A DNA stretch of 64,000 bases. It comes from Nitrospiraceae bacterium. GTDB lineage: Bacteria > Nitrospirota > Nitrospiria > Nitrospirales > Nitrospiraceae. The notes beneath the pieces were generated by a model. It worked only from the letters and a program-made list of their open reading frames with translations. It was not told the DNA's origin and ran no database searches. The stretch is from the NCBI GenBank assembly GCA_019637075.1, contig JAHBWI010000003.1, positions 124,001-188,000 of the forward strand, given 5' to 3'. Both the position numbers and the translations under genes were made by a program. Below are positions 10,074-59,496 of this stretch, one piece after another; the first letter of the stretch is position 1, and each line of letters begins with the position of its first letter.

Positions 10074-10235
10074 GAGCCCCACCTTATCCCATCCGCCGTC
10101 GGCTCCCGTCAAGCGGGGTCATGTGCCGGTTGCGCGACGGATCGGCGCGGTGGGAGAGGCTGAGCGGGCTGTCGGTCGGTTGCTCTACGAGCCCACCCTA
10201 TGATAGGTTCGCCGATCCACAAGGGGGGCTCTATC

Positions 10236-11444
10236 ATGCCGACCGGAGAACTACGCCAAGACGCGGAACAGTACTTGATGAATACCTATGCGCGTCTCCC
10301 CATCTCCATCGTGCGGGGGCGGGGCAGCCGGGTCTACGACCTGGAGGGGCGGGAGTATGTCGACTTCGTGGCCGGCATTGCGGTCAACCTGCTGGGGCAT
10401 GGCCATCCGGACCTGGTGCTTGCCATCCAGAAGCAGGTGCAGCAGCTCATCCATACGTCCAATTTGTATTACACCGAACCCCAAGTGCAGTTGGCAAAAA
10501 TGTTGGTGGAGCATTCGTTCGCGCAGAAAGTGTTTTTCTGCAACAGCGGGGCGGAAGCCAACGAAGCCGCCATCAAGCTGGCCCGGAAGTATGCCCACGA
10601 CAAGTATGGAGCCGGGCGGTTCGAAATCGTTACGATGAAAAACTCCTTCCATGGACGGACGCTGGCGACGTTGACCGCGACCGGACAGGAGAAGGTGCAG
10701 AAGGGCTTCGATCCGCTGATGCCGGGGTTCTCCTATGTCACGTTCAATGATCTCTCAGAGGTCGAGCGGGCGATGACCGAGAAAACCGCGGCGGTCATGT
10801 TAGAACCGATCCAAGCGGAGGGCGGGGTGCACGTCGCCGATCGCGCCTACATGCAGAGCCTTCGGGAGCTGTGCCGCGAACGTGATGTGCTGCTGATCTT
10901 CGACGAAGTCCAGACGGGTATGGGACGGACCGGTCCGTTGTTCTGCTATGAGCATTTCGGTATTCAGCCCGACATCATGACGCTGGCGAAGGGGCTGGGC
11001 GGCGGAGTGCCGATCGGCGCCTGTCTCGCGACCGACGCAGTGGCGAAGGCGTTTACGCCAGGGACTCACGCCTCCACATTCGGCGGGAATCCCTTGGCTT
11101 GCGCTGCGGGGCTGGCGGTCTTGCGCACACTGCTCGAGGGAAAGGTTTTGGACCATGCCCGCCGAATGGGCGATTACCTGGCCAAGGGATTGGCCGCCTG
11201 CAAGGAACGGCATCGGGTCATCAAGGAAGTGCGGGGCCTCGGTCTCTTGCAAGGCATGGAATTGGACACGGACGGGAAAGCTGTGGTCGCCGATTGTCAG
11301 GCTCGCGGGTTGTTGATCAACTGCACCGGCGATCGGGTGCTGCGGTTTGTCCCCCCACTCGTGATCACCCAGAGCGAGATCGATCGCTTGCTGCATGCGC
11401 TTCCGCAGGTGCTCGGCCAGCGAACAGCGGTCTCCGCTCACTAA
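10236..11444 (+). CDS. argD: Acetylornithine aminotransferase
   Basis: This is 402 residues from the ATG at 10236. It is a class-III PLP aminotransferase with FFCNSGAEANEAA (phosphate-binding), NSFHGRT, IFDEVQTGMGRTG and the PLP lysine in TLAKGLGGG (Lys252). It converts N-acetylglutamate semialdehyde to N-acetylornithine in arginine synthesis; family members may also act on succinyl-DAP. The assignment to ArgD is supported by the immediately following argF, argG and argH genes (17, 4 and 3 bp gaps). It is the first gene of this anabolic operon. Confidence 0.95.
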   Translation: MPTGELRQDAEQYLMNTYARLPISIVRGRGSRVYDLEGREYVDFVAGIAVNLLGHGHPDLVLAIQKQVQQLIHTSNLYYTEPQVQLAKMLVEHSFAQKVFFCNSGAEANEAAIKLARKYAHDKYGAGRFEIVTMKNSFHGRTLATLTATGQEKVQKGFDPLMPGFSYVTFNDLSEVERAMTEKTAAVMLEPIQAEGGVHVADRAYMQSLRELCRERDVLLIFDEVQTGMGRTGPLFCYEHFGIQPDIMTLAKGLGGGVPIGACLATDAVAKAFTPGTHASTFGGNPLACAAGLAVLRTLLEGKVLDHARRMGDYLAKGLAACKERHRVIKEVRGLGLLQGMELDTDGKAVVADCQARGLLINCTGDRVLRFVPPLVITQSEIDRLLHALPQVLGQRTAVSAH

Positions 11445-11461
11445 CCCTGTAGGGGCGCATT

Positions 11462-12454
11462 ATGGCTCGGCGTCCTGGTCGATCGACCTCTCAGACCGGC
11501 CTCGGTAAAGATTTTCTCGATCTCCTTTCGATCCCACGAGCGGAACTCGACGGATTGTTGCGGCTGGCGGCCCAATTGAAGGCCAAGCAGGCGCGCGGAA
11601 TTCCGCATCCGCTGCTGCCCGGGAAAATGCTGGGGCTGGTCTTCCAGAAGCCCTCGACCCGTACCAGGGTGTCCTTCGAGGCGGGCATGAATCAACTCGG
11701 CGGCCAGGCCATGGTGCTGCCGATGGGCGACATTCAGCTGTCGCGTGGCGAGACGGTGGCCGATACGGCTCGAGTCCTCTCCCGCTATCTCGACGCCATC
11801 GTCGTGCGCACGTTCGATCATGCCATCGTCGAGGAATGGGCGAGGGAGTCCACCATCCCGGTCATCAATGGACTCACGGATCTGAATCATCCCTGCCAGG
11901 CGCTATCGGATCTGCTTACGATTCAAGAAAAGAAGGGGCGTTTGGCCGGGCTGAAGATGGCCTATGTCGGCGACGGGAACAACGTCACGAATTCTCTGAT
12001 CGAGGCGGCCGCCAAGATGGGAATGACGATCGCCGTCGGCTGTCCGCCCGGTTACCAACCCGACCAGCACATCGTCGATCGCGCGCGGGAGGAAGCAGTG
12101 GAGACCGGCGCCACGATCGAGATTGGCTCCGATCCGCTGGTGGCGGTGAAGGATGCGGACGTCCTGTATACGGATGTGTGGATCAGTATGGGGCGGGAAC
12201 GGGAGCAGGCTCGGCGTCTGAAGATCTTGGCCCCCTATCAATTAAACGAGCGGCTGCTCAAGCGGGCCAAGCCGGACGCGCTCGTGATGCACTGCCTGCC
12301 GGCCCATCGCGGTGAAGAAATCAGTGCCGATGTCTTGGACGGCCCGCAATCGGTCGTGCTCGACCAGGCCGAAAATCGTCTACACATGCAAAAAGCGATT
12401 CTGGTGCGCCTGCTGGCGCGCGGCCGCAAGGAAAACGGAAAGAGGAAAAAGTAA
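11462..12454 (+). CDS. argF: Ornithine carbamoyltransferase
   Basis: A 330-residue protein. The carbamoyl-phosphate motif [11 protein letters not shown], the [11 protein letters not shown] block and the ornithine-binding C-terminal [11 protein letters not shown] are all present, defining an anabolic OTCase that makes citrulline. It has an N-terminal extension of about 15 basic and polar residues. It sits 17 bp downstream of argD and 4 bp upstream of argG. Its ornithine may come from ArgJ/ArgE steps encoded elsewhere, or from the arginine dihydrolase-like protein at 54161. Confidence 0.95.
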
Positions 12455-12458
12455 GGCT

Positions 12459-13676
12459 ATGAGCAAGTCAACGTACAAGAAGGTTGTGTTGGCATATTCG
12501 GGCGGATTGGATACGTCCGTCATTCTCAAGTGGCTCGAGGAAGTCTACGGCTGTGAGGTCATCGCGTTCTGCGCTGATTTGGGGCAAGGCGAGGACTTGA
12601 AGGGAATCAAGAAGAAGGCGCAGGCGTTGGGCGTCCGGAAGGTCTTTATGGAGGACTTGCGCGAGACCTTCGTGAAGGACCATGTCTTTCCGATGCTGCG
12701 TGGCAATGCCGTCTATGAAGGCAGCTATCTGCTGGGCACCTCGATTGCCCGCCCCCTGATCGCCAAGCGGCAAATCGAAATCGCCGCGGAAGAAGGGGCC
12801 GAAGCGGTGTGTCACGGCGCCACCGGGAAAGGCAACGACCAGGTTCGGTTCGAGTTGACCTACATGGCGCTCCATCCGCAGATCAAGATCATCGCTCCCT
12901 GGCGCGAATGGACGATGCGCTCACGGCGTGAGTTGATCGAGTATGCCGAAAAGCACGGGATTCCGGTGACGGCGACCAAGGCGAAGCCCTACAGCATGGA
13001 TATGAACCTGTTTCATACCAGCTATGAAGGCGGCATCCTTGAAGATCCCTGGGCTGCACCGCCGGAGGAAATCTTCGTCATGTCGGTCTCGCCGGAACGG
13101 GCGCCGAACAAGCCGCGCGAAATCGAAATCGAATATGTGTCGGGCGATCCGGTCGCGGTCGACGGAAAGAAGATGGGACCGGCCGCACTGTTGGCCCATC
13201 TGAACAAACTCGGCGGCGAGCACGGGGTCGGCCGCGTCGATCTGGTGGAAAATCGGTACGTGGGCATGAAATCCCGGGGAGTCTACGAGACGCCGGGCGG
13301 AACCATTCTCCATGCGGCGCATCGTGGATTGGAGTCGCTGACCATGGATCGCGAGGTGCTGCACCTGCGCGACAGCCTCATCCCGCGCTATGCGGAGCTG
13401 ATCTATTACGGATATTGGTATGCGCCCGAGCGGGAGATGATTCAGACCGCGCTCGATGAAGCGCAGCGTGATGTGACCGGGACCGTGCGGGTGAAGTTGT
13501 ACAAGGGGACTTGCACCGTGGTCGGCCGCAAGTCGCCGCGCTCGCTCTACCGGTTGGACATGGCGACTTTCGAAGAAGATGAAGTCTATCGGCAGAAGGA
13601 TGCGGAAGGTTTCATCCGGCTCAATGCGTTGCGATTGGCGATCCGCGCCCAGCGTAAGAAGGGATCGCGCAAGTAA
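12459..13676 (+). CDS. argG: Argininosuccinate synthase
   Basis: This is 405 residues from the ATG at 12459, 4 bp after the argF stop; an upstream in-frame extension runs inside argF and is rejected. The ATP pyrophosphatase P-loop [10 protein letters not shown] lies near the N-terminus, followed by the substrate-binding blocks [14 protein letters not shown] and [15 protein letters not shown]. It condenses citrulline and aspartate to argininosuccinate with ATP going to AMP and PPi. The length is typical of the ArgG type 1 family. It is followed 3 bp later by argH. Confidence 0.96.
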
Positions 13677-13679
13677 CCC

Positions 13680-15131
13680 ATGGCGAAACCGAAGTCGACC
13701 AAATCTACCACCCGTCGACCTGCCGCATCAGGCCGGACGGCAAAAGCTCTTCCCCAAGGGAAGGCTTGGGGGGGACGGTTCGCTGAGCAAACCGATCGGC
13801 TGGTGGAGCAGTTCACCTCGTCGCTTTCGGTGGATCAGCGGCTCTATTCCTACGACATCCAGGGCAGCGTTGCGCACTGTCGGACGCTGGAACGAGCCGG
13901 GGTGTTGACCTCGCGGGAAGCCGCTGAATTGGTTCGAGGGCTGGAGCTCGTCAAGGCCGAGCTGGACGAGGGCCGTTTCCCGTTTCTGCCGCAGGATGAG
14001 GACATCCATATGGCGATCGAACGTCGCCTGACCGAGCTGATCGGTCCGTTGGGCGGAAAGCTCCATACCGGGCGGAGCCGCAACGATCAGGTCGCATTAG
14101 ACCTGCGGTTGTTCCTGCGGGATGCGTTACAGCGGTTGGGGAGCCAACTGCAAGAGTTTCAGCGAGTGTTGGTCGCTCAGGCTCGTGCGCACCTGCACGT
14201 CGTCATGCCGGGCTATACGCATCTGCAGCGGGCGCAGCCAGTGCTCTTGGCGCACCATCTGCTGGCCTATGTAGAAATGTTCGATCGAGACCGCGGGCGG
14301 CTGCACGATGATCGCAACAGATTGAACGTCATGCCGCTCGGTTCCGGCGCACTTGCCGGGTCCAACTATCCCGTCGATCGCGAGTACACGGCCAAGCTGC
14401 TGGGGTTTCCTGCGGTGACGCGAAACAGTCTGGACGCCGTGTCGGATCGGGACAGCGTCGTCGAAACGCTGGGGGCTCTGTCGCTGATCATGATGCACTT
14501 GTCGCGGCTGAGCGAGGAATTGATCCTCTGGGCGTCACAGGAGTTTCGGTTCGTGGATTTGCCGGATACGTTCTGCACCGGCAGCAGTATGATGCCTCAA
14601 AAGAAAAATCCCGACGTGCCTGAACTTGTTCGGGGGAAGACCGGGCGGGTGTACGGGCATCTCATGGGGATGCTCACCCTCATCAAGGGGTTACCCTTGA
14701 GCTACAACCGGGATCTGCAAGAAGATAAAGAGGCGCTCTTCGATGCGGTGGACACGACCGGGCAGTCGGTGGTGTTGTGCACGGAATTGATGCGTCGGGC
14801 TCGCTTCAACGAATCGGTTATGCAGCAGGCTGCCGAAGGGGGGGGGATGTTGGCGACGGAAATCGCCGACTATCTGGTCACCAGGGGGGTGCCCTTCCGG
14901 GAGGCCCATTCCATTACCGGTCGAATTGTGCGATCCTGTATTGAAAAAGGTCAAGCGCTTCAAGGTCTTAGCTTGACGGACCTGACCTCATTTTCCGACC
15001 GATTCGAAAAGGACGTACTCGATTGTTTGACTGTACAGGGGGCGATTGACAGAAAGGGGCAATTGGGAGGGACGGCGCGGCGACGCGTCGAACAGCGGAT
15101 CAAGGAGTGGGAAAAGGCGCTGCGGGCATGA
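13680..15131 (+). CDS. argH: Argininosuccinate lyase
   Basis: This is 483 residues. A basic, Pro/Ser/Thr-rich N-terminal extension of about 28 residues precedes the conserved KAWGGRFAE start. The fumarase/aspartase signature GSSMMPQKKNP lies at 301-311, and THLQRAQP and the HTGRSRND block are visible. It splits argininosuccinate to arginine and fumarate. The stop overlaps the ATG of the following lipoprotein gene (ATGA, 4 bp), so the operon continues into it. Confidence 0.95.
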   Translation: MAKPKSTKSTTRRPAASGRTAKALPQGKAWGGRFAEQTDRLVEQFTSSLSVDQRLYSYDIQGSVAHCRTLERAGVLTSREAAELVRGLELVKAELDEGRFPFLPQDEDIHMAIERRLTELIGPLGGKLHTGRSRNDQVALDLRLFLRDALQRLGSQLQEFQRVLVAQARAHLHVVMPGYTHLQRAQPVLLAHHLLAYVEMFDRDRGRLHDDRNRLNVMPLGSGALAGSNYPVDREYTAKLLGFPAVTRNSLDAVSDRDSVVETLGALSLIMMHLSRLSEELILWASQEFRFVDLPDTFCTGSSMMPQKKNPDVPELVRGKTGRVYGHLMGMLTLIKGLPLSYNRDLQEDKEALFDAVDTTGQSVVLCTELMRRARFNESVMQQAAEGGGMLATEIADYLVTRGVPFREAHSITGRIVRSCIEKGQALQGLSLTDLTSFSDRFEKDVLDCLTVQGAIDRKGQLGGTARRRVEQRIKEWEKALRA

Positions 15132-52919: not shown

Positions 52920-54164
52920 ATGTCCCAATCACAAGAAATGGTCCTCCTGGAGGGCCACATCATCGATTCGTTGATCCTGGCCAAAGTTCTGGACACGATC
53001 CTGATGATGGGCGGCTCATTCGATCTCAATCACGTGACGATCGGCGCCACGAGGGAAGCTCCTTCGGAAGCCCGGATTACCGTGCGCGCCCCATCCGGAC
53101 GGCTGCTCTCCGATATTCTCCGCGCCATCCAGCCCCACGGCGCGACGGTGGAAGGTGAAGGGGATTGCCGTTTCGAACCGGCTCCCGCCGCGGGGGTATT
53201 TCCCGAGCAGTTCTATGCGACGACACATTTGCCGACGCAGATACGGCTCGAGGGCGAATGGGTCGAAGTGGAGGCCATGGAAATGGACCTCGGTATTTGT
53301 ATCGATCCTGCCAGGAGCCGCGCCCGAACGGTGCCGATGGGGGAGGTGAAGGCAGGAGACCTCATCGTGACCGGTCGTGAAGGGATCAGGGTCGTCCCGC
53401 TTGAGCGCCCCAGGGAACGGGATGTCTTCAGCTTCATGCAGTCGGTGGTATCGGCGGAACGACCGCATCAGCCGGTGGTGGCGGACATTGCGCGAAGAAT
53501 GCAGGACCTGCGAGAGCGGCACCGAGCCGGGCAGCGGGGAGGGAAGGTGTTGGTGGCGGGGGGGCCGGCGATCGTCCACGGCGGCGGGCGGGAGTCGCTC
53601 ACCTGGCTGATTGAGCAGGGGTTTGTGCAAGTGTTGTTTTGCGGTAACGCGTTGGCGGCGCATGACATGGAGGCGGATGTGTATGGGACGTCGCTGGGCT
53701 ACGGCCTTTCGGCAGGCCGCTCGGTGCCTCATGGCCACGAACATCACTTGCGGACGATCAATCGTATCCGTGCGATCGGCGGTATCCGGGAGGCGGTCAC
53801 CACGGGCCTCATCAAGCATGGAATCATGGCGGCCTGCGTGCGGCACGATGTGGATGTGGTGATGGCGGGCACGATCCGCGACGATGGCCCGTTGCCGGGA
53901 GTGATCACCGACTCCGTGGAGGCACAGCGTGCGATGCGAGCGGCCGTGCCGGGAATCGGATTGGCGCTGCTGATCGCATCCACCCTCCATGCCGTAGCAA
54001 CGGGCAATCTGTTGCCGGCGACCGTGCCGACTGTGTGCGTTGACGTGAATCCCGCCGTTCCGACCAAGCTTGCAGACCGAGGCAGCTTTCAGGCCGTCGG
54101 TTTGGTGATGGACGCCGCGTCGTTTTTGACTGAGTTGGCGCGTGAATTGGGGTGGCGTCCATGA
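52920..54164 (+). CDS. LOR/SDH-region (TIGR00300) protein, ornithine cyclodeaminase-like
   Basis: A 414-residue protein. Two parts are visible: an N-terminal domain (about 1-195) and a Rossmann-like NAD-binding region (about 200-414) with VLVAGGPAIVHGGG, FCGNALAAHDMEADVYG and the conserved HGHEHHLRTINRIRAIGGI and ACVRHDVDVVMAGTIRDDGPLPG. This is the same family as the C-terminal half of cyanobacterial AgrE and of archaeal ornithine cyclodeaminases, which turn ornithine into proline and ammonia. The next gene overlaps it by 4 bp and matches the other half of AgrE. Confidence 0.85.
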   Translation: MSQSQEMVLLEGHIIDSLILAKVLDTILMMGGSFDLNHVTIGATREAPSEARITVRAPSGRLLSDILRAIQPHGATVEGEGDCRFEPAPAAGVFPEQFYATTHLPTQIRLEGEWVEVEAMEMDLGICIDPARSRARTVPMGEVKAGDLIVTGREGIRVVPLERPRERDVFSFMQSVVSAERPHQPVVADIARRMQDLRERHRAGQRGGKVLVAGGPAIVHGGGRESLTWLIEQGFVQVLFCGNALAAHDMEADVYGTSLGYGLSAGRSVPHGHEHHLRTINRIRAIGGIREAVTTGLIKHGIMAACVRHDVDVVMAGTIRDDGPLPGVITDSVEAQRAMRAAVPGIGLALLIASTLHAVATGNLLPATVPTVCVDVNPAVPTKLADRGSFQAVGLVMDAASFLTELARELGWRP

Positions 54165-54961
54165 GTCGTCTGCTGGTGTGCCCTCCCGATTATTTCAGTA
54201 TCGACTATGAGATCAATCCTTGGATGCGTCGGGCCAACGCCGTCAATCCGGAGGAGGCCGTGCGGCAGTGGCATGGTTTGATGGAAGTGCTGGAAGGGGT
54301 GGTGGGCGCTGCCGTTGAGCGGATGGCTCCTGTCCAAGGCCTGCCGGATTTGGTCTTCACGGCAAATGCCGGTGTCGTTGTCGGGCGTAAGGCCGTGATC
54401 AGTCGATTTCGTCACCCGGAGCGTCGGCGCGAAGAAACCCATTTTGCCGCATGGTTCACGCAGCACGGGTATGAGGTGCTCACGCTGGATCCGCAGTTCT
54501 ATTTCGAAGGTGCTGGAGATTTACTCGGTTTTCCCGACCGGTGGTTCGGCGGCTATCGTCAGCGGTCCGACATTCGAGCCTTTCCCCACATCGGCGAGCT
54601 GTTCAAGAAAGAAATCATTCCGCTCGAATTGGTGGACGGGCGCTTCTACCATCTCGACACGTGCTTCTGTCCCTTGAGCGGAGGAGAACTTCTGTATTTT
54701 CCATCGGCGTTCGATCCCTATGCGCAGAAGGCGATCATGGAACAGATTCCGGACCGCCGTCGCTTGGCGGTGCCGGAGGAAGAAGCCTTGCGGTTTGCCT
54801 GCAACGCAGTCTGCGTCGGCAAGCATGTCGTCCTTCCTGCCGGATGCCCTCGTACGATGGACCTCTTGGATCGTGCCGGGTATATGCCTCACCCCACGCC
54901 GCTGGATGAGTTCATGAAGTCCGGTGGTTCCGCCAAGTGCCTCACCCTCGCACTCGATTAG
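54161..54961 (+). CDS. Arginine dihydrolase-like guanidino-group-modifying enzyme (ArgZ/AgrE N-domain type)
   Basis: This is 266 residues from the ATG that overlaps the previous stop (ATGA). The fold is the pentein (arginine deiminase/dihydrolase/DDAH) type: INPWM (Asn19), PDLVFTANAG (Asn69), FEGAGDLLG, YHLDTCFCPL with catalytic His164, and the nucleophile Cys260 in GGSAKCLTLAL near the C-terminus. The TANAG asparagine and the fit to ArgZ-type enzymes suggest hydrolysis of arginine to ornithine, two ammonia and CO2, rather than to citrulline. Activity is inferred. Confidence 0.82.
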   Translation: MSRLLVCPPDYFSIDYEINPWMRRANAVNPEEAVRQWHGLMEVLEGVVGAAVERMAPVQGLPDLVFTANAGVVVGRKAVISRFRHPERRREETHFAAWFTQHGYEVLTLDPQFYFEGAGDLLGFPDRWFGGYRQRSDIRAFPHIGELFKKEIIPLELVDGRFYHLDTCFCPLSGGELLYFPSAFDPYAQKAIMEQIPDRRRLAVPEEEALRFACNAVCVGKHVVLPAGCPRTMDLLDRAGYMPHPTPLDEFMKSGGSAKCLTLALD

Positions 54962-55102: not shown

Positions 55103-55462
55103 CTATGCTTTGGTTCGAAAGAGAAACGACAGATACAAGCCGGCGATGGCGGTCGTCGTGAGTTCGATCGTGAGGAGCATGCGGCTGACGATGGCATCCG
55201 GTTGTGGAGGAGACAGGATGAACCGAAAACCGAGAAAGGCGGCCGGCTGCGAGGGAGGGCTCTCCCAGGGGGGAAAGACTAGAGCAACCAGTAGAAGGCC
55301 GACCATTCCATAAAGGATGTTGATGTTGAGCTGCTCCTTCTCCTTCCCTGTTCCGGGTCTCAGGGCGGCCTGCGGCGGTGAGCCATCGAGCGCCCGGCCG
55401 CATTGCGTGCAGAATCGGTTGATCTCGGGGAGGTCGTGTCCGCAGGAAGGACAGGGCTTCAT
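55103..55462 (-). CDS. Zinc-ribbon membrane protein
   Basis: A 119-residue protein. The N-terminal zinc ribbon (MKPCPSCGHDLPEINRFCTQCGRALDG) is followed by a polar linker and two hydrophobic segments (ILYGMVGLLLVALVF and TIELTTTAIAGLYLSFLF). It has the same head-plus-helices layout as the DUF2628 protein at 9429 but lacks the DUF2628 motif. The function is unknown; it is probably an inner-membrane protein. It is convergent with the arginine module and divergent from gpsA. Confidence 0.7.
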   Translation of the reverse strand: MKPCPSCGHDLPEINRFCTQCGRALDGSPPQAALRPGTGKEKEQLNINILYGMVGLLLVALVFPPWESPPSQPAAFLGFRFILSPPQPDAIVSRMLLTIELTTTAIAGLYLSFLFRTKA

Positions 55463-55636: not shown

Positions 55637-56659
55637 GTGAGCAGATCAATGCCGACGGTCGCGGTGATTGGTGCGGGAGCTTGGGGAACTGCCCTGGCCG
55701 CCCACCTGGCTGCAAAGCCCGTGGCGGTCCGCCTCTGGGCGTATGAGAAGGAAGTCGTGGAGTCGATCACGCGCGACCGCGAAAACCGGATGTTTTTATC
55801 AGGGGTGCCGTTACCGGAGACATTGTCCGCCACCGGCTCCTTGCACGACGCGGTGACCGGGGCCGATGCCTTGGTGTTTGCCGTGCCATCTCACGTCGCG
55901 CGTCGGGTACTGCGCCAGCTGGCGTCCGTCATGACCGAGCCGATGCCGTTCATCAGCGCCACCAAGGGGATCGAAGAGGACACCCTCGCCCTGATGACAC
56001 AGGTGATGACCGAGGAACTTCCGCCGTCGATCCATCCTTTTCTCATGGTGCTCTCGGGCCCCAGTTTCGCGGCAGAAGTGAGCGCGCGTAAGCCCACGGT
56101 CGTTTGCCTCGCCGGCGGCAATGCAGAGGCCGTGAAGCAGATCCAGGGTCTATTCATGACGCCGACGTTTCGCGTCTACGCGGATGACGATCTCATCGGC
56201 GTGCAACTCGGCGGGGCATTGAAGAACGTGATGGCAGTGGCGGCCGGGGTCGTGGACGGTCTGGGGTTAGGCCACAATGCTCGCGCCGCCTTGATCACGC
56301 GCGGACTGGCGGAAATGATCAGGTTGGGGTCGGCGATGGGCGCGGACCCGCGGACGTTCTACGGACTGTCCGGTGTCGGGGATCTGATCCTGACTTGCAC
56401 GGGGGCGCTCAGCCGCAACCATTCGGTCGGGGTGCGGCTTGGACAGGGCGAGCGGTTGGAAGCGATTCTAGCCAGCATGCATGCCGTGGCCGAAGGGGTA
56501 CGCACTGCAAAGGCCGCGCTCGGCTTGGCGAGGCGTCACGGCGTGGAGATGCCGATCGCGCAGGAGATTAATGCAGTGCTTTTCGAAGGGAAATCCTGCC
56601 GCCAAGCGGTCGGGGACCTCATGGAGCGGGAAGCCAAGGGAGAAAAGGGAATCGCGTGA
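55637..56659 (+). CDS. gpsA: Glycerol-3-phosphate dehydrogenase [NAD(P)+]
   Basis: This is 340 residues from the GTG at 55637, chosen for its GAGGGG site 8 nt upstream; GTG at 55628 and ATG at 55649 are alternatives. It has the nucleotide-binding VAVIGAGAWGTAL motif, SATKGIEEDT, SGPSFAAEV, and the substrate/active-site GALKNVMAVAAGVVDGLGLG and SGVGDLILTC blocks. It makes sn-glycerol 3-phosphate for membrane lipids. It overlaps larB by 4 bp. Confidence 0.95.
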   Translation: MSRSMPTVAVIGAGAWGTALAAHLAAKPVAVRLWAYEKEVVESITRDRENRMFLSGVPLPETLSATGSLHDAVTGADALVFAVPSHVARRVLRQLASVMTEPMPFISATKGIEEDTLALMTQVMTEELPPSIHPFLMVLSGPSFAAEVSARKPTVVCLAGGNAEAVKQIQGLFMTPTFRVYADDDLIGVQLGGALKNVMAVAAGVVDGLGLGHNARAALITRGLAEMIRLGSAMGADPRTFYGLSGVGDLILTCTGALSRNHSVGVRLGQGERLEAILASMHAVAEGVRTAKAALGLARRHGVEMPIAQEINAVLFEGKSCRQAVGDLMEREAKGEKGIA

Positions 56660-57498
56660 ACCAGGAACAACTGACGTCATTGCTGGAGCAAGTTCGCGAG
56701 GGATCGCTGGATATTTCGGATGCCCTGCGGCGGTTGCGCACGCTGCCCTATGAGAATTTGGGGTTTGCCTCGCTGGACCACCATCGCGTCTTGCGGCAGG
56801 GTTTCCCGGAAGTCATCTTTTGCGAAGGGAAGACTGAACGGCAGGTGGTGGCGATCGCCCGAACGCTGCTGAGCAAGAATGACTCGTTGTTGGCGACCAG
56901 AGTCGATCGATCGGTCGCGAAGGCGCTGCTTCGGCTGGAGAAGCAGGCTGTCTACCACGAGTCGGCACGCGTGGTGTCGATCGCATCGCCGAAACAAGTG
57001 CGAAAGGGGTCGGTGCTGATCGTGACGGCAGGCACCGCCGATATTCCTGTGGCGGAAGAGGCGAGGGTGACCGCGGAAACGATGGGCAGCTACACCGAAA
57101 CCCTGTATGACGTCGGTGTGGCCGGTCTCCATCGCCTGCTTGGCCAGCAGGATCGTCTGCATGACGCACGCGTGTTGGTCGTGGCCGCCGGGATGGACGG
57201 GGTCTTGCCGAGTGTCGTCGGGGGCTTGGTCCGTCAGCCGGTTGTGGCGGTTCCGACCAGTCGAGGGTATGGAGCCCATTTCGGCGGGCTGGCTGCTCTC
57301 TTGACCATGCTGAATTCCTGTGCGGCCGGCGTCGCGGTGATGAACATCGACAACGGGTTCGGTGCGGGGTGTTTGGCCCACCGGATCAACATGGTGGGAG
57401 AGGAGACTGTCGGCCCGGGGAGCGAAGAAGCCGTCGGCGTTCGGCGATCAGCCGGCCGAGCGGGTGCCAAGAGGCGGCTCGGAAAATCTCAGCGCTGA
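56656..57498 (+). CDS. larB: Nickel pincer cofactor biosynthesis protein LarB
   Basis: A 280-residue protein with an AIR-carboxylase (PurE)-like domain. It has the N-terminal ALRRLRTLPYENLGFASLDHHR region, FCEGKTERQVV, and the conserved C-terminal VVAAGMDGVLPSVVGG, VPTSRGYGAHFGGLAALLTMLNSC, VMNIDNGFGAG blocks that distinguish LarB from PurE. LarB carboxylates and hydrolyses nicotinic acid adenine dinucleotide as the first step of the nickel pincer cofactor used by lactate racemase. A C-terminal basic tail of about 25 residues is extra. It is co-transcribed with gpsA. Confidence 0.93.
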   Translation: MNQEQLTSLLEQVREGSLDISDALRRLRTLPYENLGFASLDHHRVLRQGFPEVIFCEGKTERQVVAIARTLLSKNDSLLATRVDRSVAKALLRLEKQAVYHESARVVSIASPKQVRKGSVLIVTAGTADIPVAEEARVTAETMGSYTETLYDVGVAGLHRLLGQQDRLHDARVLVVAAGMDGVLPSVVGGLVRQPVVAVPTSRGYGAHFGGLAALLTMLNSCAAGVAVMNIDNGFGAGCLAHRINMVGEETVGPGSEEAVGVRRSAGRAGAKRRLGKSQR

Positions 57499-57544: not shown

Positions 57545-58114
57545 TCATTTCACCGCGAAGGTCCCGCGCTTCGGCCAGGACAGCATCTGCGTACGCTGGC
57601 CCTTGTCTCCGTTGCTCAGCAGTTTGGCCCGCACTTCATATTCATAGGGGCCTGGCGGCGCGGGCAGTTTGTTGTGATCCAACCCATCCCAGACCAACTC
57701 GATCTGCACCTGCTTCGGCAGGGCATCTGCCGACCCGCTGTTGTGCCCGACCGACTGGTGGGCGTGGATCGGTTGGCGGTCTGAGAGGAACCGCAACGAG
57801 GTCATGGAGGGGGAGGTGAGGAGTGCGGACACTTCGAGCATCAGGGTCTCATCGACTTCCTTCGGCAACTGAATTCTGGCGGAAAAATGAAAAGGCCCTG
57901 AATTGGGATGGTACGGAATCGGGGAGGCGTGCAGTTCCAGGATCTTGAGCTCGGGCTCCGGTCTCGGCACGGTTTTCTGCTTGGTCTTCGCGAGGGCATC
58001 CTGGCCTGGTGCGAACAGGACCGTCAGAATCCCGGCCACCAGGATAAGCAGGGGAAGCCAGCGGCCTGCTGGGATCGGGATTGAGTCGATGCCGGCGGTC
58101 TTTGAGTTGGTCAT
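57545..58114 (-). CDS. Hypothetical exported or membrane-anchored protein
   Basis: This is 189 residues from the ATG at 58114; a longer frame to 58195 adds 27 residues without hydrophobic character. One N-terminal hydrophobic segment (LPLLILVAGILTVLFAPG) is followed by a KTKQK linker and a beta-rich domain with an apparent Ig-like pattern (FHFSARIQLPK, PYEYEVRAKLLSNG). I do not recognise the family. It lies on the opposite strand between larB and larC and interrupts them. Confidence 0.6.
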   Translation of the reverse strand: MTNSKTAGIDSIPIPAGRWLPLLILVAGILTVLFAPGQDALAKTKQKTVPRPEPELKILELHASPIPYHPNSGPFHFSARIQLPKEVDETLMLEVSALLTSPSMTSLRFLSDRQPIHAHQSVGHNSGSADALPKQVQIELVWDGLDHNKLPAPPGPYEYEVRAKLLSNGDKGQRTQMLSWPKRGTFAVK

Positions 58115-58290
58115 GCGGGTCGCTGTTTGCTCGTAGATCGCTTGGCTGAGGCGATAGGTGTCACGTATTGATCGGGGATAACATAGCGTTCGCACGCTGT
58201 CAACGAATGAGCGGAATGATTGCCGTCCGGAAACGGGTCCGGTAAGATGCCGACTCGCTTTTAGGGAATCTGAAGCGGGAGCCTATCTCT

Positions 58291-59496
58291 GTGCGATTGC
58301 ATTTTGACTGCTTCTCCGGGGTCAGCGGAGACATGATTCTCGGCTCGCTCGTGGATGTCGGATTGCCCTTCAATCGCCTGGTCCGAGGATTGAAGGCGTT
58401 GCCCGTCGAAGGGTTCCGCCTGCGACGGAGTGCCGTGATGCGCGGAGCGCTGGCCGCGACCAAAGTGGATGTCGATATCACCAAGGGATTCGGCACGCCT
58501 TTGACCGTAGCGCAGATCAGACGGATTCTGAACAAGAGCACGCTCCCGACTCCGGTGAAGGAAAAAAGTCAGGCGGTTTTCGATCTGTTGGCCCAAGCCG
58601 AGGGGAAGGCTCACCGAGTGGATCCGCACCATGTCCATTTCCATGAGGTCGGGGTCATCGACTCCTTCGTGGACGTCGTCGGCGGCGTCTTGGGACTTCA
58701 TCTCTTGGGCGCGGACCGCATCACAGCGTCCCCGATCAATGTCGGGTCGGGGACCGTGCAATCCGCCCACGGTTCCTTGCCCGTGCCCGGCCCGGCTGTG
58801 GCGGCTCTGGCTGCCGGACTGCCGATCTATGTCGATGGCCCGGCGCGTGAACTGGCGACGCCGACCGGGGTCGCGCTCCTGAAGACGATGGCGCAGGAGT
58901 TCCGCGGGTTGCCGCCGATGCAAGTGCGGAACGTTGGGTATGGTGCCGGTACCGCCGATCCCCACCATTGGCCCAATGTTCTTCGAGTCTTCGTCGGCGA
59001 CGAGGAGCCGGACTCTCAGGCATCGAGCGATACGATCGTTGAACTGCAGACGAACATCGACGACTTGAATCCGCAGGTCTATGAGTCGGTCTTCGAGCAA
59101 GTGTTTGCCGCCGGCGCCCTGGATGCGACCCTGACTCCGGTGACGATGAAAAAGGGACGTCCGGGTATCGTCCTGTCGGTCCTTGTGCCGCGGGAGAAGG
59201 TGGAGCCGGTGCTGGGTATTGTGTTCGCGGAGACGACGGCCCTCGGCATCCGCCTGGCGGATGTCCGGCGTCGGATCCTGCCCCGCCGGTTCGAAACGGT
59301 GTCCCTGCGCGGGGGATTGGTGCGGATCAAACTGGGAATGGCCAAGGCCGGCCGAACCAAGGCCGCGCCGGAGTATGAAGACTGCCGACGAATCGCGGAA
59401 CGGACTGGGCGTCCGGTGAAAGACATCCTCGAGGAGGCCGTCGTGGCCTATCGGCAGGGAGTCTCCGAGAAGGCAAAAGTACGAAGGACAAAGTAG
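58291..59496 (+). CDS. larC: Nickel pincer cofactor biosynthesis protein LarC
   Basis: A 401-residue protein from the GTG at 58291. It has the opening HFDCFSGVSGDMILG, the HHVHFHEVGVIDSFVDVVG metal-binding His cluster, TPTGVALLKT and the C-terminal VELQTNIDDLNPQ, VTMKKGRPG and EDCRRIAERTGRPVKDI blocks. LarC inserts nickel into the pincer cofactor. In some organisms it is split by a programmed frameshift; here it is a single uninterrupted gene. The LarB and LarC genes lie 792 bp apart. Confidence 0.95.
   Translation: MRLHFDCFSGVSGDMILGSLVDVGLPFNRLVRGLKALPVEGFRLRRSAVMRGALAATKVDVDITKGFGTPLTVAQIRRILNKSTLPTPVKEKSQAVFDLLAQAEGKAHRVDPHHVHFHEVGVIDSFVDVVGGVLGLHLLGADRITASPINVGSGTVQSAHGSLPVPGPAVAALAAGLPIYVDGPARELATPTGVALLKTMAQEFRGLPPMQVRNVGYGAGTADPHHWPNVLRVFVGDEEPDSQASSDTIVELQTNIDDLNPQVYESVFEQVFAAGALDATLTPVTMKKGRPGIVLSVLVPREKVEPVLGIVFAETTALGIRLADVRRRILPRRFETVSLRGGLVRIKLGMAKAGRTKAAPEYEDCRRIAERTGRPVKDILEEAVVAYRQGVSEKAKVRRTK

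Follow-up and report, generated by a model that had tools for sequence, protein, structure and literature searches.

Two overlapping genes in the window (the whole stretch of DNA analysed here, 64,000 nucleotides from a 4.06 Mb Nitrospiraceae genome) probably encode an arginine-to-proline catabolic module, a reading to which we give a probability of roughly 75%. The first gene encodes a TIGR00300-type ornithine cyclodeaminase (OCD), which most probably depends on the nickel-pincer nucleotide (NPN), the second encodes a pentein protein predicted to be an arginine dihydrolase, and PutA would finish the conversion to glutamate; we infer the activities, the cofactor and the flux. As judged from sequence, the two genes together correspond to the arginine-catabolic enzyme AgrE, divided into two proteins with its halves in reverse order. 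In the proposed pathway, the pentein protein would hydrolyse arginine, forming an amidino intermediate bound to a cysteine and yielding ornithine, CO2, and two ammonia. Ornithine would then be deaminated and cyclised to proline by the TIGR00300 protein, with a third ammonia freed by internal hydride transfer, most probably with NPN built by LarB, LarE, and LarC. PutA, which is encoded elsewhere, would convert proline to glutamate, and the module as a whole would recover carbon and nitrogen from arginine for Nitrospira. This genus includes the dominant nitrite oxidisers and the comammox bacteria, for which the pair predicts a full pathway that turns arginine into glutamate and releases ammonia. 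The genomic and physiological literature on organic-nitrogen use by nitrifiers, where examined, does not mention the dihydrolase or the cyclodeaminase. If the reading is true, OCD would be a nickel enzyme requiring larB, larC, and larE.

The sequence-only reading had described two genes overlapping by ATGA at 52920-54961, and both open reading frames were found as described: the TGA stop of the first (54162-54164) overlaps the ATG start of the second (54161-54163). Among named organisms, Nitrospira come closest at this locus, for example Candidatus Nitrospira defluvii (81% identity to the first gene's protein) and N. moscoviensis (74-75%). A small zinc-ribbon-like protein is encoded on the opposite strand between the pair and gpsA (55103-55462), and it keeps its position even where the pair is absent.

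Table 1. Location of the features discussed, in window positions unless a contig is named, with the matches on which their naming rests.
Feature	Position	Strand	Evidence
Ornithine cyclodeaminase (OCD), TIGR00300 type, separate-protein OCD half of AgrE, 414 aa (ORF 1)	52920..54164	+	TIGR00300 470.5 bits; Pfam ArgZ C-terminal domains
Putative arginine dihydrolase, ArgZ N-terminal type (pentein), 266 aa (ORF 2)	54161..54961	+	6jv0 ArgZ E 8e-77; active-site residues; model
larB, first enzyme of NPN synthesis	56656..57498	+	NF033503 287 bits > 175
larC, nickel insertase of NPN synthesis	58291..59496	+	TIGR00299 198.9 bits > 90; NF052512 136.9 > 50; PF01969 444 bits
argD-argF-argG-argH, arginine biosynthesis	10200..15131 (argD 10200-11444; argF 11462-12454; argG 12456-13676; argH 13680-15131)	+	TIGR00707, TIGR00658, TIGR00032, TIGR00838, all above cut-off
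GSU2086-family loci	L002 (G000:C4:113003-113914); L003 (G000:C17:11290-12051); L118-L137		

The family assignment of the first protein, already proposed from the letters alone, is borne out by its TIGR00300 score, which exceeds the curated equivalog cut-off (470.5 vs. 410.8 bits). Its Pfam matches PF04455, PF21571, and PF21570 are the C-terminal regions of ArgZ; the Pfam search returned only such ArgZ-like C-terminal and LOR/SDH models, and no match to the mu-crystallin family of classical NAD-dependent OCDs. The protein is 41-44% identical to the OCD domain of AgrE and to the Methanococcus maripaludis protein 3c2q. Structure prediction and alignment to ArgZ/AgrE, which had been suggested as a check, gave agreement for both proteins. 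The AlphaFold model of the OCD (pLDDT 85) matches the cyclodeaminase half of AgrE with Z 38-39 and 3c2q with Z 35, at large rmsd values that probably reflect domain shifts. Residues 181-413 of the model have a deoxyhypusine-synthase fold (Z 17-18, rmsd about 3 Å). LarA is absent among the PDB structural matches of the model, although the two may still be related.

The second protein matches the N-terminal domains of Sll1336/ArgZ and Alr4995/AgrE with E-values of 1e-76 to 1e-71, and its model (pLDDT 95.3) superposes on ArgZ with a TM-score of 0.96 and an rmsd of 1.1 Å. The ArgZ-like Asn19, Asn69, His164, and Cys260 that had been picked out by eye do correspond to active-site positions, as N19, N69, E116, H164, and C260 align with N22, N71, E118, H168, and C264 of ArgZ (the latter in chain numbering after subtraction of 2 for the tag). 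Together with D120, these five residues are invariant in an alignment of 20 sequences with relatives from Nitrospirota, Nitrospinota, Planctomycetota, and Armatimonadota. According to PDB titles, substrate or intermediate was trapped in ArgZ/AgrE by mutations at C264 and N71. The residues that we take to form the active site of these enzymes were assigned from PDB titles, alignments, and general background on the family.

Cyanobacteria carry AgrE, and the pair shares with AgrE of Anabaena (Alr4995) and ArgZ of Synechocystis (Sll1336) full-length homology of both halves, the active-site residues, and the fold. In those enzymes, however, the dihydrolase is N-terminal and the cyclodeaminase C-terminal, whereas here the two are separate proteins and the cyclodeaminase gene comes first. 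The NCBIfam model for bifunctional AgrE/ArgZ (NF052231) reflects this difference: protein 1 covers profile positions 286-692 (378.7 bits) and protein 2 positions 6-269 (286.8 bits), so that both halves are present, but neither reaches the cut-off of 1025, and in place of a single fused polypeptide of about 700 aa there are two frames in the opposite order with an intervening stop codon. The earlier description of separate AgrE halves in reverse order thus agrees with the TIGR00300, Pfam, and ArgZ/AgrE matches. Since the halves are separate proteins, any direct channelling between them would need a complex. A stand-alone member of the same family is also known from archaea (M. maripaludis 3c2q, MJ1480; 44% identity over 328 aa), which we take to serve proline synthesis; the Nitrospira pair includes a dihydrolase partner, whereas this comparison shows none for the archaeal protein.

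The pair is widespread in relatives and not unique to the genome of the window. A full OCD is present in 47 of 148 Nitrospirota genomes, all 47 of which also encode the dihydrolase, and OCD comes first wherever gene order was read. Among 80 loci taken from genome contigs, the same split order was found in other Nitrospira, another class of Nitrospirota, Nitrospinota, Planctomycetota, and Armatimonadota, and none carried a fused OCD-dihydrolase. The ATGA overlap is present in most Nitrospira, and either ATGA or a short gap is frequent among split pairs across these groups. On the other hand, larB and larC within 10 kb of a split pair were seen only in Nitrospiraceae. The divergence of OCD is mirrored by that of the dihydrolase (r = 0.96, 45 pairs), which, together with the E-values and the co-presence in every OCD genome, excludes a chance association. 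The split form is therefore an ordinary alternative to fusion that is common outside cyanobacteria, and the peculiarity that the sequence-only reading had implied for it falls away.

The direction of the pathway is indicated by the genes that accompany the pair. Counting strong full-length matches in the 148 Nitrospirota genomes, PutA/proline dehydrogenase (PF01619, the frames mostly some 1000 aa long) was found in 46 of the 47 genomes with OCD, vs. 10 of the 101 others. Within the family to which the window belongs, OCD and dihydrolase are missing from three genomes (G070, G125, and G129; 1.7-2.0 Mb), and PutA is missing from them too. In G125 and G129, the flanking genes, truD and those downstream of the pair, are retained, and the pair alone is cleanly absent. 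ProC is above cut-off in 141 of 148 Nitrospirota genomes, with two copies in that of the window, and OCD is thus unnecessary for proline synthesis. Co-occurrence and joint loss with PutA, along with the near-universal ProC, suggest a dispensable catabolic unit leading from arginine through ornithine and proline to glutamate. The same order of steps, with PutA acting after AgrE, is described for Anabaena (PMC8262935; Flores, 2021). An arginine-to-proline module, as the sequence-only reading had proposed, is hence the best reading of the family assignments, residues, folds, and PutA co-occurrence.

Three other readings of the pair were considered. The pentein could make citrulline or act on another guanidino compound, in the manner of a dimethylarginine dimethylaminohydrolase (DDAH) or a deiminase. 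It scores 237.6 bits against the mycobacterial dimethylargininase model NF045659 (curated cut-off 300), and its best fit, the arginine dihydrolase model NF052232, gives 286.6 bits, yet lies below the curated cut-off of 450. That cut-off is reached by none of the Nitrospirota homologues, which may be due to the model having been set on cyanobacterial proteins. ArgZ/AgrE are well ahead of DDAH in both sequence (43-47% vs. about 21% identity) and structure (TM 0.80-0.85 for DDAH), the equivalent of N71 is conserved, and the gene is paired with that of an ornithine enzyme, all of which makes a DDAH-like or deiminase-like activity improbable. It is also highly improbable that the pair is biosynthetic and provides the cell's way to proline from arginine or ornithine: TIGR00300 is present in methanogens, where we presume it to make proline, but ProC is nearly universal in Nitrospirota and the pair is accompanied by PutA.

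The sequence-only reading had further proposed an ornithine-ammonia cycle as suggested for Synechocystis, in which the dihydrolase would mainly return ornithine to ArgF, ArgG, and ArgH as a nitrogen buffer. The three genes are indeed in the window, argF-argG-argH lying at 11462-15131 with matches above the family cut-offs, and with argD and a putative dihydrolase in the same genome the cycle is chemically possible. Ornithine could also escape more readily from a dihydrolase set apart from OCD than from a fused enzyme with channelling. However, the dihydrolase gene lies beside that of an ornithine-consuming enzyme, the pair goes with PutA, and argDFGH, which is universal arginine biosynthesis, is 38 kb away and unlinked to the pair. 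Even in cyanobacteria the cycle has been treated as a side activity (PMC8262935; Flores, 2021). The gene set for the cycle stands, and a cycle fed by leaked ornithine may operate as a secondary activity; as the main role of the pair it is rather improbable.

The catabolic reading extends to the cofactor of the cyclodeaminase. The earlier reading missed larB and larC nearby and, with them, the question of a nickel cofactor. These genes lie 1.7 and 3.3 kb downstream of the pair, outside its operon, as one opposite-strand gene and gpsA intervene; larB belongs to a separate transcription unit, after gpsA. With larE elsewhere in the genome, as well as one LarA-domain protein, the full cofactor gene set (LarB, LarC, and LarE) for TIGR00300 is encoded. 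The arrangement resembles the Lar system, in which LarB, LarE, and LarC serve the LarA racemase, but the client proposed here is a TIGR00300 enzyme with a deoxyhypusine-synthase fold. The most direct support is curation, as NCBIfam 20.0 names TIGR00300 NPN-dependent; in our literature search, nothing was found that links NPN to ornithine cyclodeaminase. Both larB and larC are present in all 47 OCD-bearing Nitrospirota genomes, 35 of which are without LarA, and larC lies within 10 kb of OCD in 38 of them; because the genomes are related, Fisher p-values for such co-occurrence overstate its independence. LarC is present in 126 of the 148 Nitrospirota genomes and is thus common in the phylum anyway. 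In 48 further OCD genomes, reached through loci and mostly from other phyla, LarC is above cut-off in 45, the remaining three being metagenome-assembled genomes in which no LarC reaches it. M. jannaschii and Haloferax volcanii have OCD and LarC and no LarA. According to PMC11796402, larB, larE, and larC occur without larA in about 15% of genomes, including many cyanobacterial ones, and non-LarA NPN proteins are predicted. Linkage alone proves nothing, since the larB-larC neighbourhood is also intact in G125, G129, and G143, which have no pair. These data make it likely that OCD is NPN-dependent, with larB and larC as its probable cofactor suppliers.

The alternative is that the TIGR00300 enzyme uses NAD+ as its hydride carrier, like classical OCDs, and that the larB/larC pattern reflects other NPN users. 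This is suggested by the title of PDB entry 6lrg, which names AgrE with ornithine and NAD+, by the cofactor domain, whose deoxyhypusine-synthase fold binds NAD in relatives, and by the retention of larBC in genomes that lost OCD. Against it are the NCBIfam naming (2026), the LarC counts in the further OCD genomes, the larBCE sets without larA in cyanobacteria, and the fact that no sampled Nitrospirota genome has OCD without larB and larC. Use of NAD+ as the hydride carrier is accordingly considered unlikely.

Two observations were made in this neighbourhood. An opposite-strand gene (57545-58195) separates larB from larC; its 216-aa product has no Pfam or NCBIfam match, and it occupies the same place in G070, G125, G129, and G143, the last of a related family. 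In G143 (L144 6401-10708), a Cas9-like frame of 1130 aa and a Cas1-like frame of 302 aa, both recognised by eye, lie upstream of gpsA-larB.

OCD as the sole NPN user wherever LarA is absent was rejected, since G070, G125, and G129 keep larB and larC with neither protein. More broadly, 76 of the 126 LarC-bearing Nitrospirota genomes have neither OCD nor LarA. This gap is filled by the uncharacterised GSU2086 family (NF052581). Of the genomes that carry larB as well as larC, 122 in all, 119 have at least one of OCD, LarA, and GSU2086; the other three are fragmented drafts, with pieces of GSU2086 in two of them. Any of these families is found in only 1 of 20 genomes that lack both larB and larC. 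When genomes with OCD or LarA are left out, 69 of 72 larBC genomes have GSU2086, vs. 6 of 26 others. Comparison of the GSU2086 and TIGR00300 profiles (hhalign) gave a probability of 89% and an E-value of 2e-6 over 124 columns, and the domain common to GSU2086 and OCD is part of the cofactor domain of OCD. In register and invariant in both families are His220/65, Asn243/90, His248-Asp249-x-Glu251/96-97-99, and Thr257/106. In several genera the GSU2086 gene is a neighbour of gmhA and hldE-type genes, a setting that suggests that it acts in heptose synthesis.

GSU2086 is thereby a candidate third NPN user, a lead whose counts are weakened by genome relatedness. It may be, at somewhat less than even odds, that NPN serves three types of client in Nitrospirota (LarA racemases, TIGR00300 OCD, and GSU2086, the last possibly a sugar epimerase or isomerase), which together would explain larB and larC without LarA. 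OCD, along with the candidate GSU2086, would then offer an answer to the use of NPN in organisms without LarA. The LarA-domain protein L004, L142 (G000:C3:386284-386859) reaches the cut-off of none of the named LarA subfamilies, and its neighbours look by eye like polysaccharide genes, flippase- and glycosyltransferase-like.
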